From the NCBI RefSeq assembly GCF_021391675.1, contig NZ_CP090095.1, positions 1,183,501-1,247,500 of the forward strand: 64,000 nucleotides of DNA. The letters are read 5' to 3'. Below the pieces are notes generated by a model. The model made no database searches, had not been told where the DNA came from, and saw only the letters and a list, made by a program, of their open reading frames with translations. Of the stretch, positions 6,900-11,010 are shown in pieces; position 1 is the stretch's first letter; each line of letters begins with the position of its first letter. The position numbers and the translations under genes are program-made. The stretch is from Neorhizobium galegae (lineage in GTDB: Bacteria > Pseudomonadota > Alphaproteobacteria > Rhizobiales > Rhizobiaceae).

Positions 6900-7340
6900 A
6901 TGAAGTTTAAACTGATTGCCGCCGCCGCGACCGTACTCTGTCTTGGCTTTACGGCCGTAACCGCGCAGGAAACCCCGATTGCCAAGCGCCAGGCGCTGAT
7001 GAAGGGTATCGGCGGCGCAGCCGGCGCCCTCGGCGGCATCGCCAAGGGCGAAAAGCCCTATGACCAGGCTGTGGTCCGCACGGCGCTGACCACGATCAGC
7101 ACCAATATCAAGGCCTTCCCGGATCAGTTCCCGGCAGGCTCCGAGACCGGCGACAAGACCAAGGCCGCACCGGCCATCTGGGAAAAGAACGCCGAATTCC
7201 GGGCGAACGCCCAGAAGCTCGGATCCGACGCGGAGACTATTCTGGCTTCGATGCCGGCAGACCAGGCCGCCGTCGGCAAGGCCCTGCAGACGCTCGGTGG
7301 CAACTGCAATACCTGCCATCAGAACTTCCGCCTGAAGTGA
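6900..7340 (+). CDS. cytochrome c' / c-556 family protein
   Basis: A 146-residue periplasmic haem protein: signal peptide (MKFKLIAAAATVLCLGFTAVTAQ, cleavage near residue 22), a four-helix-bundle body, and a single CNTCH haem-attachment motif near the C-terminus (about residues 137-141), as in cytochromes c' and c-556. Members bind NO or act as electron carriers. A GAGGAGAGG ribosome site directly precedes the ATG. It is followed 86 bases later by a di-haem cytochrome on the same strand, so the two may be co-transcribed. Confidence 0.92.
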   Translation: MKFKLIAAAATVLCLGFTAVTAQETPIAKRQALMKGIGGAAGALGGIAKGEKPYDQAVVRTALTTISTNIKAFPDQFPAGSETGDKTKAAPAIWEKNAEFRANAQKLGSDAETILASMPADQAAVGKALQTLGGNCNTCHQNFRLK

Positions 7341-7363
7341 GTGCGGTCCGGTTTTAGGATCTG

Positions 7364-7393
7364 AGGACGGCTGCAGCTTGCTGCGGCCGTCCT
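7364..7393 (+). other. intergenic hairpin between the two cytochrome genes
   Basis: AGGACGGC pairs with GCCGTCCT, with a partial inner GCAG/CTGC stem. No U-run follows, so it is more likely a stability or attenuation hairpin than a full terminator between the two cytochrome genes. Confidence 0.4.
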
Positions 7394-7426
7394 TGCATTG
7401 CAGGGTGACGCCGGAGGAGGAAGGCG

Positions 7427-8341
7427 ATGGCATCGATATGGTCCAAAATCCTGGCGGCGGGCGTCGTGGTGATCGCCGCGGGTGCTGCCACGGCCTGGGC
7501 GCTGACCAAGCCCGATCCCCATCCCGATTCCCATTGGGCGGGCCTCGGCGCGCCGGATCTTGCCAAGGGCGAGCAGCTCTTCTGGGCCGGCGGCTGTTCG
7601 AGCTGTCATGCCGCGACCGGCGCCACCGGCGATGCCCTGAAGGTTCTGTCCGGCGGCAGGGCGCTGCCGAGCCCGTTCGGCACCTTCCATATTCCCAACA
7701 TCTCGCCCGATCCGAACGCCGGCATCGGCAACTGGACCTTGGCGCAGTTCGGCAATGCCACCACCCGCGGGGTCGGGCCGGACGGCGAGCACCTCTTCCC
7801 GTCCTTCCCCTACGGCTCCTATTCGCGGCTCTCGGCCAAGGACATCAACGATCTCTTCGGTTACCTGAAGACCCTGCCGGCGAGCACCAATGTCGCGCCG
7901 CCGCACGAGCTGCCGTTCCCCTTTAATATCCGGCTGGCGGTCGGCGGCTGGAAATTCCTCTATTTCAGCGACCAGCCGCGGGTGGAGCTTGCCTCCGCCG
8001 ACGACAAGGTCAAGCGCGGCCAGTTCCTGGTCGAAGGCCCCGGCCATTGCGGCGAATGCCACACGCCGCGTGACGCGACGGGCGGTTTTCTCACCGACCG
8101 CTGGCTTGCGGGCGGCCCGAACCCGGAAGGCAAGGGCACCATCCCCAACATCACGCCGGGCTCGAAGGATATCGGCTCGTGGAGCGAGAGTGACATTGCC
8201 GGTTATCTCGAAACCGGTTTCACCCCGGATTTCGACACGGTCGGTGGCTCGATGGTCGAGGTGCAGCAGAATATCGCGCATCTGCCGAAAAGCGATCTTG
8301 AGGCAATCGCGGCTTATTTGAAGGCCGTGCCGTCGCGCTAG
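7427..8341 (+). CDS. membrane-anchored di-haem cytochrome c
   Basis: A 304-residue protein with an uncleaved-looking N-terminal helix (about residues 8-26) and two cytochrome c domains, each with a haem motif: CSSCH at residues 57-61 and CGECH around 205. The layout matches the membrane-bound cytochrome subunits of periplasmic dehydrogenases such as alcohol or gluconate dehydrogenase, but with two rather than three haems and no dehydrogenase gene beside it. It probably passes electrons to the respiratory chain. The ATG follows GGAGGAGGAAGGCG, a strong ribosome site. Confidence 0.9.
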   Translation: MASIWSKILAAGVVVIAAGAATAWALTKPDPHPDSHWAGLGAPDLAKGEQLFWAGGCSSCHAATGATGDALKVLSGGRALPSPFGTFHIPNISPDPNAGIGNWTLAQFGNATTRGVGPDGEHLFPSFPYGSYSRLSAKDINDLFGYLKTLPASTNVAPPHELPFPFNIRLAVGGWKFLYFSDQPRVELASADDKVKRGQFLVEGPGHCGECHTPRDATGGFLTDRWLAGGPNPEGKGTIPNITPGSKDIGSWSESDIAGYLETGFTPDFDTVGGSMVEVQQNIAHLPKSDLEAIAAYLKAVPSR

Positions 8342-8361
8342 GTGGATCTGGGGGGCGAGCC

Positions 8362-8553
8362 ATGAACCTACGGGAATACAAGGGCCAATCCGCGGTCATC
8401 GAATTCGATGCCGAAGACGAAATCTTCGTCGGCCATATCGCTGGCATTGCAGATCTTATCGGCTTCCATGCGAATACTCTCGCCGAAGCCGAGACCGCCT
8501 TCCACGAGGCGGTCGACGATTACCTCGAAATCCTGGCCAAGGCCGCCGGATAG
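8362..8553 (+). CDS. HicB-like antitoxin fragment, orphan
   Basis: A 63-residue protein matching the N-terminal partial-RNase-H-like domain of HicB antitoxins (YKGQSAVIEFDAEDEIFVGHIAGIAD, then LAEAETAFHEAVDDYLE). Full HicB proteins carry a C-terminal ribbon-helix-helix or HTH DNA-binding domain, which is absent; the stop follows straight after the conserved core. No HicA toxin lies on either side. It starts 20 bases after the di-haem cytochrome stop with a G-rich ribosome site, so it may ride on that transcript. It could be a truncated relic or a stand-alone one-domain form. Confidence 0.7.
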   Translation: MNLREYKGQSAVIEFDAEDEIFVGHIAGIADLIGFHANTLAEAETAFHEAVDDYLEILAKAAG

Positions 8554-8569
8554 GCCTCGGCCGCGGCTA

Positions 8570-9058
8570 TCAAGCAAGCGCCTGCGTATAGCGCATGCCG
8601 GTGACCGGGCGCGGCTTGAAATCCATCTGTTCATAGAAGCGGTGGGCGGCGAAATTGCCGGTGGCGGCGCTGACCGAAAGATAGCCGCAGCCGGCGCTCC
8701 TGGCGATCTCGCGGGCGCGCGATACCAGGTGCTGGCCGATGCCGTGGCCGCGATGGCCGTCGCGCACGAAGAGATGGTGCAGGTCCATGCCGCGCGTGCC
8801 TTCCTGCGCCCGGTAGACCGGTACGAGAATGGCGTAGCCGATCAGATCCGAGCCGGTATCGGCGACAAGCGCGCTGATCCACGGCATCTCGCCGAACAGG
8901 TCGCGCTCGAGCTTTTCAGGGGTGATGCCGGCGGGATCGTTGTGATGCGCGGCAAGCAGCGCGATCATCTCGTTGAGTTCCGGCAGGTCGCGCGATTTCG
9001 CGCTGCGGATCGTCACGACCGACGGGCGGGGCAGGGTAATATCGGTATCTTCAGTCAT
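8570..9058 (-). CDS. GNAT family N-acetyltransferase, probably attenuation-controlled
   Basis: A 162-residue acetyltransferase transferring acetyl from acetyl-CoA to an unknown amine. GNAT motif A is clear at LHHLFVRDGHRGHGIGQHLVSRA (Q/RxxGxG/A-type GHRGHGIG), followed by a motif B-like ATGNFAAHRFYEQMDF. The second ATG (9058) is chosen because AAGGA lies eight bases ahead of it; the first ATG, nine bases upstream, would touch its ribosome site. Upstream lie a consensus promoter, a leader peptide with consecutive Tyr-Phe-Trp codons and a terminator with a competing antiterminator, so expression is predicted to respond to charged aromatic tRNAs. Its substrate may therefore relate to aromatic amino acids; this is inference. 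Confidence 0.9.
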   Translation of the reverse strand: MTEDTDITLPRPSVVTIRSAKSRDLPELNEMIALLAAHHNDPAGITPEKLERDLFGEMPWISALVADTGSDLIGYAILVPVYRAQEGTRGMDLHHLFVRDGHRGHGIGQHLVSRAREIARSAGCGYLSVSAATGNFAAHRFYEQMDFKPRPVTGMRYTQALA

Positions 9059-9102
9059 TTCCGGCATCCTTTTTCGGTCTTCTCGCCGTCAGGTGCCGTT
9101 TG

Positions 9103-9159
9103 AAACAACAAAGCCGCCTGACGGCGGCTTGTTGACATGGTGATCTGTCGAGCCGCCCT
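9103..9159 (-). promoter_or_regulatory. transcription attenuator (antiterminator/terminator) upstream of the GNAT gene
   Basis: Read on the minus strand, GGGCGGCT (9158-9151) lies two bases after the leader peptide stop, and AAGCCGCC (9130-9123) follows about 20 bases later. The second element can pair either with the first (antiterminator) or with GGCGGCTT (9118-9111) across a GTCA loop (terminator), after which TGTTGTTT follows. A ribosome finishing the leader would cover GGGCGGCT and favour termination; one stalled at the Tyr-Phe-Trp codons would leave it free. This is the layout of classical amino-acid attenuation. Confidence 0.75.
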
Positions 9160-9213
9160 TTAAAGGAAGGCCCAAAAATACGAGCAGGCGATGGTTGTGC
9201 GCGCGTTGATCAT
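9160..9213 (-). CDS. aromatic leader peptide (MINARTTIACSYFWAFL)
   Basis: A 17-codon open frame, too short for usual gene finding, whose codons 12-14 are Tyr-Phe-Trp and codon 16 is Phe; four of the last six residues are aromatic. Its ATG lies at or within a base or two of the transcription start predicted from the promoter, so translation would start at the very 5' end of the RNA, as known for the rhizobial trp leader. It ends two bases before the antiterminator arm. Its peptide sequence differs from that trp leader. The function proposed is sensing aromatic aminoacyl-tRNA supply for the downstream GNAT gene. Confidence 0.7.
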   Translation of the reverse strand: MINARTTIACSYFWAFL

Positions 9214-9219
9214 GGCGCC

Positions 9220-9248
9220 TAGATGCTCCCGATCTCAAATCTTGTCAA
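9220..9248 (-). promoter_or_regulatory. consensus sigma-70-type promoter for the leader/GNAT unit
   Basis: On the minus strand TTGACA (9248-9243) is followed by exactly 17 bases and CATCTA (9225-9220). The predicted start, about seven bases on, coincides with the A of the leader ATG. The -35 box overlaps the end of the preceding iminopeptidase gene. Confidence 0.7.
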
Positions 9249-10249
9249 GCACCATCCGCGAAACCGTTGGCCGCCGCCACGATCGCCTCCGCCATGCCCC
9301 GGTCACCGGTTGAATGACCGGCATTTTCGATCATCACCGGCTCGCTTCCCGGCCAGGCTTTTGCGAGGGCAAATGCGGTCGCCGGCGGCCCCTGCAGGTC
9401 GAACCGGCCCTGGATCAGCACGCCCGGTATCCCGGCAAGCTTGTGGGCTTGGCGCAAAAGCTGGCTATCCTCCAGCCAGGCACGGTTCTCGAAATAATGG
9501 ACGCAGAGCCGCGCCCGGGCGAGCACGAAAGCCGGATCCTGCCAGCGGAGCGGCAGCCCGGCCTGCGGTTCCGCGGAGATCGAGCCGGCCTCCCAATGAT
9601 GCCAGTCGAAGGCGGCCTTGTGGCGCACAGCCAGGTCGGTATCGTTGAGCAGCGCATGATAGGCGGAGACGGGATGGCGGTCGCGCAAGGGCTCCGGAAT
9701 GGCGGCGACGAAATTTTCGAAGGCCTCCGGCAGGAAGATCGACAGGCCGTTATAAAGCCAGTCGATTTCGGCCCAGCGCGTCGTGGTGACGCCGGCAAGG
9801 ATGATCGCCCGAACCTGGCCGGGAAAGGCCTGGGCATAGACAAGCGCCAGCGTAGCGCCCCAAGAGGAGCCGAATACCAGCCAGCTTTCCACGCCAAGTC
9901 GCTGCCGCAAAGCCTCGATATCGCCGATCAGGTGCTGCGTCGTATTATCAGCAAGTTTGTTGCCGAAATCGCCGGCATTCGGCGTGCTTTTGCCGCAGCC
10001 GCGCTGGTCGAACTGGACGATGCGCCACACCGCAGGATCGAAATGCCGCCGGGCGCTGTCCGACATGCCGGACCCCGGCCCGCCATGCAGCAACAGCACC
10101 GGCTTGCCGGCCGGATTGCCGGAAAGGGCAAAGAATATCCGGTTGCCGTCGGGCCTGTCGAGGAAGCCGGTCTGGTATGGGGCGAGGACGGGGAAGAGGG
10201 TGGGATCGGTTAACGCATTTTCCGTCATCTGCATGCCCTTTGTTTGCAT
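9245..10249 (-). CDS. pip: proline iminopeptidase family alpha/beta hydrolase
   Basis: A 334-residue serine peptidase of family S33 that removes N-terminal proline from peptides. The oxyanion-hole motif LLHGGPGSG and the following FDQRGCGKS are visible near residues 52-85, the nucleophile elbow is GSSWGA (about 127), and the acid and base are in GRFDLQGP and ENAGHS near the C-terminus. The preferred ATG (MQTKGMQMTEN) has GCGAGG before it; a GTG two codons upstream and an ATG eight codons in are alternatives. It seems to be its own unit, with the promoter of the leader/GNAT unit embedded in its 3' end. Confidence 0.9.
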   Translation of the reverse strand: MQTKGMQMTENALTDPTLFPVLAPYQTGFLDRPDGNRIFFALSGNPAGKPVLLLHGGPGSGMSDSARRHFDPAVWRIVQFDQRGCGKSTPNAGDFGNKLADNTTQHLIGDIEALRQRLGVESWLVFGSSWGATLALVYAQAFPGQVRAIILAGVTTTRWAEIDWLYNGLSIFLPEAFENFVAAIPEPLRDRHPVSAYHALLNDTDLAVRHKAAFDWHHWEAGSISAEPQAGLPLRWQDPAFVLARARLCVHYFENRAWLEDSQLLRQAHKLAGIPGVLIQGRFDLQGPPATAFALAKAWPGSEPVMIENAGHSTGDRGMAEAIVAAANGFADGA

Positions 10250-10348
10250 ATTCACCTCGCCCGTTCAATGCTCGGTTCCGAGCGGCGCCTTCCTCCTTGC
10301 CGATTGCTCGTGATGGGGTATATTACATCAGACATCACGGGGCCGCCG

Positions 10349-10642
10349 ATGGCGAAAGCGACACTGGTTCAGAGGACGCGTAGCTATCTGCGGGAAGGCG
10401 TGTTCGTTGAAGTCGTGGTCTGGCATGTGCCGGCTTCGCTACGCGGAAGTGCTCATGAATTCAAGTACAGCATGGCGCTGGTGGCCGGAGGCGAGTGCGT
10501 GTTGCGATATGACAACCAAGCCGGAAAAGGCGATCACAGGCATTTCGGTACGCTGGAGACGGCCTATTTTTTCAAAGATATCGACCAGCTTCTGGCCGAT
10601 TTCACTGCCGACGTGAGAGGATGGCTGCGTGACAACGCTTAA
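10349..10642 (+). CDS. tumE: TumE-like toxin of a type II toxin-antitoxin pair (DUF6516)
   Basis: A 97-residue protein resembling the TumE family: FVEVVVWHVPASLRGSAHEFKY, then CVLRYDNQAGKGDHRHFG and a C-terminal DIDQLLADFTADV helix. The central YDNxxGKGDHRH block is the conserved part of the family, members of which are paired with a small HTH antitoxin, as here. The ATG at 10349 (MAKATLVQ) matches the usual family start; an ATG 36 bases upstream is also possible. Its end overlaps the partner by 14 bases, indicating coupled translation. Toxicity is inferred from the family. Confidence 0.8.
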   Translation: MAKATLVQRTRSYLREGVFVEVVVWHVPASLRGSAHEFKYSMALVAGGECVLRYDNQAGKGDHRHFGTLETAYFFKDIDQLLADFTADVRGWLRDNA

Positions 10643-10991
10643 GGTGAAGATCGAAACGCTCGAACAGTCCATGGCGTCGGTTTCTGAAGCCTTCAAGGCA
10701 TCCAAAGTCGGTGAGCACAGGCCCGCGACGAGTGTATTGTCCTTCCCTTCCTGGGAGATGCTTCATCGTGTTCTGGCGCCGAAACGGCTCGAAATCGTGC
10801 AGGCGATGACGGGGCAGGGGCCTTTGAGCATTCGAGAGGTCGCCCGCAGGGTCGACCGGGATTTCAAGGGTGTGCACAGCGATGTGGACATGTTGCTTGT
10901 CAGCGGCGTGATCGACAAGGCCGAGGGCGGCGGCATCGTCTTCCCCTATGATCGCATCCACCTGGAGTTCGATATCGAGGCCGCCGCCTGA
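10629..10991 (+). CDS. tumA: TumA-like HTH antitoxin
   Basis: A 120-residue DNA-binding protein with a winged helix in its second half: FPSWEMLHRVLAPKRLEIVQAM, then GPLSIREVARRVDRDFKGVHSDVDMLLVSGVI. This matches the HTH proteins that accompany TumE/DUF6516 toxins. It starts at a GTG inside the toxin gene (14-base overlap), so toxin precedes antitoxin, the reverse of most type II loci. It probably neutralises the toxin and represses the operon. It is convergent with the merR gene 19 bases away. Confidence 0.8.
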   Translation: MTTLKVKIETLEQSMASVSEAFKASKVGEHRPATSVLSFPSWEMLHRVLAPKRLEIVQAMTGQGPLSIREVARRVDRDFKGVHSDVDMLLVSGVIDKAEGGGIVFPYDRIHLEFDIEAAA

Positions 10992-11010
10992 GGCAAGCCG
11001 TCAGACGCCC

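Follow-up and report, generated by a model that had tools for sequence, protein, structure and literature searches.

A 64,000-nucleotide stretch of a Neorhizobium galegae genome of 6.05 Mb (hereafter, the window) carries on its minus strand a gene for an acetyltransferase of the GNAT superfamily, preceded by a promoter, a short leader open reading frame (ORF) with Tyr, Phe and Trp codons in a row, and an RNA able to fold into competing hairpins. The features of this locus are collected in Table 1. We consider it likely, on comparison of related loci, that the leader is a codon-sensing, leaderless, ribosome-mediated attenuator with the GNAT gene as its target; that an attenuator with this target is real is very likely, and it probably switches the enzyme on when charged aromatic tRNA is short. 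The acetyltransferase target is the surprise of the system, as amino-acid attenuators are known from biosynthetic and synthetase genes. Among the titles and abstract openings of the literature matches listed, a set with subscription papers mostly outside its scope, we found no attenuator ahead of a rhizobial acetyltransferase.

Table 1. Features of the leader, the GNAT gene and its upstream neighbour (coordinates of the window)
Feature	Position	Strand	Basis
Promoter: -35 TTGACA 9248-9243, 17-nt spacer, -10 CATCTA 9225-9220	9220..9248	-	read from sequence
Predicted leaderless leader-peptide ORF MINARTTIACSYFWAFL 9213-9163, stop TAA 9162-9160	9160..9213	-	read from sequence; conserved
ATG of leader ORF	9213-9211	-	6 nt after CATCTA
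Tyr-Phe-Trp, leader codons 12-14	9180-9172	-	
Hairpin 1:2 (GGGCC.UCCU / AGGG.GGCUC), from Trp codon across stop codon	9150..9173	-	per-sequence folds, arm swap
Segment 2 GGGCGGCT, antiterminator 5' arm	9151..9158	-	9157-9151 pairs with 9129-9123
Segment 3 AAGCCGCC, arm common to antiterminator and terminator	9123..9130	-	alignment pairing
Segment 4 GGCGGCTT 9118-9111 and interrupted U-tract TGTTGTTT 9110-9103; intrinsic terminator 3' arm	9103..9118	-	
P5 5' arm GCCGTCAGG, from the second half of segment 3 through the terminator loop into the beginning of segment 4	9117..9125	-	
P5 3' arm CCTGACGGC, downstream of terminator	9085..9093	-	
Anti-Shine-Dalgarno CGGCACCT, P6 5' arm; CCT common to P5	9091..9098	-	
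Shine-Dalgarno region AAGGATGCCG, P6 3' arm	9062..9071	-	
GNAT acetyltransferase, 162 aa, putative regulated gene	8570..9058	-	PF00583, AlphaFold, orthologues
Prolyl aminopeptidase (pip), upstream neighbour only	9245..10255	-	TIGR01249 304.9 bits, cut-off 259.75

The evidence that carries this reading is the constancy with which leader and gene occur together. When 150 genomes were searched with the leader DNA as query, 64 were matched, and in 61 the match was a leader ahead of the GNAT gene (57 genomes of the same genus, G000-G056, and one genome from each of four other genera in the host family); the gene adjoins the leader in all 61 of these loci. The reverse search, with the GNAT protein as query against 247 genomes across the host family (E <= 1e-20), found the gene in 55 genomes and in 23 of 109 genera, and all 55 genomes carry a leader in which two or more aromatic codons, Tyr among them, follow one another, together with the GCGG / GCCGCC arms. 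At the same threshold, every locus holding the gene (115/115) has a short leader with these arms upstream. A collection of named genomes, partly the same as those of the family sample, was kept to the best 80 of 227 relatives (Neorhizobium, Rhizobium, Ciceribacter, Shinella, Pseudorhizobium and others; GNAT protein 78-98% identical), and all 80 loci have a Tyr-Phe-Trp leader. The original prediction, made from the letters of the window alone, had named relatives that keep the gene while losing the codons or stems as the finding that would speak against it, and within the host family none turned up among the 55 genomes or the 80 named loci.

The 115 loci reduce to 109 distinct loci and these to 78 distinct leader peptides. 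Their aromatic run reads YFW in 71 peptides and WYF in 4; one peptide has YF, one WFYY and one no run. A run of at least two, as in trp-type attenuators, is present in 77 of the 78. The Trp codon is shifted in MITRPTHIAWYFTLLP, MIRTANIARWYFTLLP and MITTATRARWYFTLHS, and the aromatic order is rearranged in MIKRLPTLCWFYYANLP, which argues that codon content is what lasts. The window has 230 ORFs of 12-20 codons that start with ATG; three consecutive aromatic codons occur in two of them, one being the leader itself, and its conservation rules out chance as an explanation. We take the leader to be real because it is conserved across genus and family, whereas its single-sequence fold adds little.

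Direct reading confirms both the promoter, which had been predicted to aim TTGACA-N17-CATCTA at the ATG on the minus strand, and the predicted Tyr-Phe-Trp at codons 12-14. In the window, the six bases between the -10 region and the leader ATG leave no space for a ribosome-binding site, and the leaderless spacing is upheld by a TTGAC that starts 34-39 nt upstream of the leader ATG in 109/109 distinct loci. The transcript is thus predicted to start at or adjoining the ATG at 9213, and the leader ORF to be leaderless. Together with the family-wide leader and the competing stems described below, this spacing supports the reading of an attenuator that responds to aromatic-tRNA shortage.

The peptide tail (SYFWAFL and similar) is very conserved within the genus, which could also be read as the mark of an arrest peptide that stalls the ribosome in concert with a small molecule, in the manner of resistance leaders induced by antibiotics. 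An acetyltransferase target would fit such a drug response, and Bacillus subtilis yxjB offers a precedent (PMC6851288). We nevertheless regard an arrest peptide as improbable: across the family the order shifts to WYF, WFYY and YF with other flanks, which an arrest motif would not easily tolerate, and the nucleotides of the tail must also build hairpin 1:2.

Outside the host family, the same search for relatives that lose the codons or stems weakens the case for codon sensing. Short leaders also precede three distant GNAT members of other families, with VYF in L244 (MTDLTHIAAVYFTSAI), a shortened RY-stop in L239 (MINALKIARY) and SYH in L072 (MNLVQNHLNSYHRRLN), and since these leaders exist the pairing of leader and GNAT gene may be older than the host family. 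L072, with Tyr-His, and L239, with a single Tyr, retain a related GNAT behind leaders poorer in aromatic codons, and most of the distant GNATs scanned have no such leader: among up to 53 distant loci from order and class searches (L073-L096, L239-L267), a leader of this type was found only in L239 and L244. Two loci caught by a word filter, L240 and L266, were set aside; L266 has no such stems and L240 was not folded. As Tyr is the sole aromatic residue present in all leaders, tyrosyl-tRNA may be the core signal, a suggestion that draws on few outgroups.

Competing stems in the leader RNA

In alignment A1, which holds 55 of the 56 representatives (L072 left out), the terminator 3:4 is paired in 98.6% of cells and the antiterminator 2:3 in 90.9%, with an invariant core. 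The two are mutually exclusive, as both need the GCCGCC arm. Hairpin 1:2 was tested sequence by sequence, again with L072 left out; this replaced a version on the MAFFT alignment (73.7% paired), which was out of register for shorter leaders. Its z was below -1 against mononucleotide shuffles in 50/50 distinct regions (mean z -3.3), and its own arms reached -14.68 kcal/mol against -12.28 for permuted arms (standard deviation 0.29), better than in all of 2000 permutations. The hairpin begins with the last of the aromatic codons and has the stop codon inside it. A change of the last leader codon from Leu to Arg is matched in the nucleotide that follows TAA (CTT-TAA-A to CGG-TAA-C), so that the pair is kept; across representatives this position is UA in 15, GC in 9, UG in 7, unpaired in 4 and gapped in 20. 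The competing stems of the original prediction thus stand, with the correction that one base, rather than two, separates the leader stop from GGGCGGCT.

The stems and codons rest on comparison, and from here on we infer the switching itself. The sensor would be the aromatic codons (Tyr constantly, in most cases along with Phe and Trp) of a leader peptide 16-17 codons long. Under fast translation, a ribosome at the stop codon would cover segment 2, 3:4 would form and transcription would end; with no ribosome loaded, hairpin 1:2 would hold segment 2 and 3:4 would still form. A ribosome stalled at Tyr-Phe-Trp would block 1:2, so that 2:3 could form and RNA polymerase read through. A folding model of these ribosome states over 105 sequences (L072, L022, L025 and L031 left out) gave average values of 0.80 for the terminator and 0.00 for the antiterminator with the ribosome at the stop, 0.80 and 0.01 with the ribosome absent, and 0.50 and 0.28 with the ribosome stalled.

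Several observations count against such a switch. The terminator hardly co-varies, 5 of its 8 pairs never varying, and the own arms of 2:3 reach -14.71 against -14.20 for permuted arms (standard deviation 0.13, minimum -14.67), i.e., barely better than permutation and with little co-variation because the core is invariant. The permutation tests leave shared ancestry in. The single-sequence fold has a z of only -1.87, with 11 of 200 shuffles folding equally well, and the U-tract TGTTGTTT is interrupted. Finally, the unforced fold of the window leader with a stalled ribosome gives 0.79 for the terminator and 0.02 for the antiterminator. Because the equilibrium in the window favours the terminator, the switch must depend on the order of folding: 2:3 has to form while segment 4 is still untranscribed, as the classical attenuation model has it.

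Pairing downstream of the terminator

The original prediction was right about the competing stems 2:3 and 3:4 and missed two further helices, P5 and the Shine-Dalgarno-sequestering P6. P5 is paired in 94.7% of cells over the 55 representatives, with 4 of its 9 pairs changed on both sides (24 such cells), and pairing falls to 20-51% once the partner is slid. Its own arms reach -17.73 against -15.41 for permuted arms (standard deviation 0.17), better than in all of 2000 permutations; arms in relatives include GCCATCAGG/CCTGATGGC, GCCGCAAGG/CCTTGCGGC and GCCTTCGG/CCGAAGGC. For P6, CGGCACCT (9098-9091) in the window can pair, with a bulge, with the GNAT Shine-Dalgarno region AGGATGCCG, and other loci offer GCGTCCT/AGGACGC, GCATCCT/AGGATGC, ACTTTCCC/GGGAAAGT and CGTCCC/GGGACG. 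Over 106 of the 109 loci (88 distinct pairs; L022, L025 and L031, with no called Shine-Dalgarno sequence, left out), own P6 arms reach -12.36 kcal/mol against -9.97 for permuted arms (standard deviation 0.19), the best of 2000 permutations being -10.76. Because they have bases in common, P5 and P6 exclude each other in part.

P6 is predicted to be a hairpin that sequesters the Shine-Dalgarno sequence downstream of the terminator, as in yxjB-type leaders, and together with P5 it would add a second tier of control. Where 2:3 has formed and the polymerase reads through, the terminator loop would be free to pair downstream as P5 and would pull part of the anti-Shine-Dalgarno off the ribosome-binding site of the GNAT gene; where 3:4 has formed and the RNA nonetheless escapes termination, P6 would keep that site shut. 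When folds of 104 sequences were forced (one more of the 105 left out), P5 reached 0.69 and the unpaired Shine-Dalgarno 0.51 with the antiterminator, compared with 0.00 and 0.31 with the terminator. On these models we lean, with some reserve, towards a coupled transcription-translation attenuator with P5 and P6 as its second tier, and the extra co-varying helices suggest that the position of the ribosome can be passed along one RNA to both termination and translation start.

The predicted effect on the Shine-Dalgarno is uneven: only 62 of the 104 forced cases show an opening above 0.1, whereas 40 change by no more than 0.1 and 2 are reversed by more than 0.1. The 40 cases of little change would suit an attenuator of transcription only, in which 1:2, 2:3 and 3:4 suffice for control and the downstream helices merely stabilise the leader RNA or modestly structure the ribosome-binding site. 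The trpE(G) leader likewise has P5-like pairing without significant co-variation (own arms -16.57 against -16.33 for permuted arms, standard deviation 0.31, 23 distinct; one of 30 trpE loci was not parsed). P5 and P6 of the GNAT leader, in contrast, co-vary and are partly exclusive through the bases they have in common, and we think control of transcription alone rather unlikely. Because the trpE(G) swap test was not significant, we rejected P5 as a general rhizobial attenuator feature and make no such claim.

Known attenuators and related leaders

In the E. coli pheA, pheST and trp attenuators, codon-specific stalling selects 2:3 over 3:4, and the targets are biosynthetic or synthetase genes. 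The GNAT leader differs from these in its acetyltransferase target and in its run of aromatic codons, usually three different ones. The leader has no match to any Rfam family, RcsR1 (RF02552) included, at E values up to 1 (searched over window positions 7000-11000). Our model predicts that model rhizobia make a small RNA ending at the terminator.

The best other full-length genome match of R1, the covariance model of the GNAT leader, is the trpE(G) leader (E 0.023). In the same genome, the trpE leader matches RcsR1 at 79.9 bits (gathering 60); we take RcsR1 and rnTrpL to be one RNA. That attenuator (L147:1526-1622, minus strand, genome G000; MNIANWWPARSTRP) resembles the GNAT leader in its short leader ORF with sensing codons and its GCCGCC/GGCGGC-type terminator, and differs in its sensing codons, two or three for Trp, and in its target, trpE. 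Its terminator loop can pair downstream of the terminator, in relatives too, whereas a co-varying P5 and a Shine-Dalgarno-sequestering P6 are shown only for the GNAT leader.

In Sinorhizobium, the trpE(G) attenuator is leaderless and gives rise to rnTrpL/peTrpL (PMC7298713, PMC10117765), and the former paper gives its leader ORF as leaderless in S. meliloti, as predicted here for the GNAT leader. The trp attenuator small RNA and its 14-aa peptide act in trans according to PMC7298713, and by analogy a terminated leader RNA or peptide could be the main product of our locus, with the GNAT gene a passenger. Given that 115/115 GNAT loci have the short leader and arms upstream, and that the extra stems aim at the gene's own ribosome-binding site, we find a trans-acting main product very improbable.

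B. subtilis yxjB, as described in PMC6851288, responds to tylosin through leader-peptide stalling, a terminator and a Shine-Dalgarno hairpin. It thus has a leader peptide, an intrinsic terminator and a Shine-Dalgarno-sequestering hairpin in common with the GNAT leader, and transcription and translation are controlled together. In the same account, yxjB differs in being triggered by tylosin-stalled ribosomes, in a leader ORF led by a Shine-Dalgarno sequence and in having no overlapping antiterminator identified; the GNAT leader, in contrast, would sense codon starvation, has a predicted leaderless ORF and possesses an antiterminator.

Among the weak places of the leader search, L062-L066 were fetched, while G031:C50 and G065:C4 stand outside the count. 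L065 (988-1135) and L066, from genomes G037 and G031, have a leader of the same type (MIKTVLIAAIYYATSP, terminator GCCGCCGTCAGGCGGC) ahead of an extra tyrS copy and were rejected as GNAT leaders, being a different attenuator. By eye, this leader has P5-like and Shine-Dalgarno-like pairing. Neither tyrS copy has an intact frame: an in-frame stop interrupts one, a frameshift the other. No such leader was seen by eye at the housekeeping tyrS of the window genome. The matches in L062 and L064 look like terminators behind a tRNA, and that in L063 is short; none was counted as a leader.

The acetyltransferase and its neighbourhood

The GNAT protein matches PF00583 (Acetyltransf_1) at 58.8 bits (cut-off 20.7, run on the 9067 start), which places it in the GNAT superfamily; its AlphaFold pLDDT is 89.5, and it shares 98% identity with records from N. 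galegae and N. vignae. Its start is probably the ATG at 9058, since AAGGA lies 8 nt upstream and many orthologues begin MTED... or MPED... (MTEDTD... in the window); the ATG at 9067 is less likely because it overlaps the AAGGA Shine-Dalgarno sequence. The protein has the SSAT/thialysine N-acetyltransferase fold, with 24-28% identity to members of that family (2bei, 2b3v, 2fe7). Protein alignment A3 was built with L022 left out. In a profile alignment with 2bei, the Glu-Asp of the SSAT2 motif LEDIYV, a position we presume to have a functional role in these enzymes, is replaced by His-His or His-Gln (LHHLFV, LHQIFV). Among the 120 homologue names listed of 306 matches, all read GNAT, acetyltransferase or nothing, with one also called 'Sortase-like acyltransferase'.

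The attenuator is a handle on an otherwise anonymous GNAT: its being kept on a lone acetyltransferase in every family carrier examined implies that the need for the enzyme rises with aromatic-tRNA starvation. The enzyme would N-acetylate a compound that lowers charging of Tyr-, Phe- or Trp-tRNA, such as an amino-acid analogue or a synthetase inhibitor, and the damage would induce its own remedy. An analogy in function only is found in the MccE/RimL acetyltransferases, which according to PMC3817062 inactivate aminoacyl-adenylate antibiotics and so relieve synthetase inhibition. We hold detoxification of a charging-lowering compound as the most likely use of the enzyme, and do so tentatively. 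A role in ordinary aromatic or polyamine metabolism is a serious possibility, if short of probable; the His-His or His-Gln in place of Glu-Asp speaks against it, and acetylating an aromatic amino acid during its own shortage would make little sense. The fullest version of the detoxification reading is a self-correcting rhizobial defence, in which loss of Tyr/Phe/Trp-tRNA charging caused by a natural amino-acid analogue or synthetase inhibitor from soil or plant induces a detoxifying GNAT and a relay of mutually exclusive helices (1:2, 2:3, 3:4, loop:5, 5:Shine-Dalgarno) sets both termination and translation start; taken whole, this is doubtful.

The leader does not belong to the upstream gene, as upstream neighbours vary while leader and GNAT gene stay together. 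In the window, that neighbour is pip, whose stop codon overlaps the -35 box (minus strand); elsewhere there are phospholipase-D-like, S9 peptidase, beta-lactamase-like and BKACE genes, and some upstream neighbours have MerR-type C-termini, recognised by eye. A scan of ten neighbour frames found no common partner, a weak result as 6 of the 10 had no Pfam match and some were mechanical frames. Past the GNAT gene lies a small convergent gene (window 8362-8553, plus strand, 63 aa) that has no Pfam match and that we take, by eye, to look HicB-like. Two cytochrome c-type genes, for a cytochrome c' and a class I cytochrome c, occupy window 6900-8341 (plus strand), also convergent to the GNAT gene.
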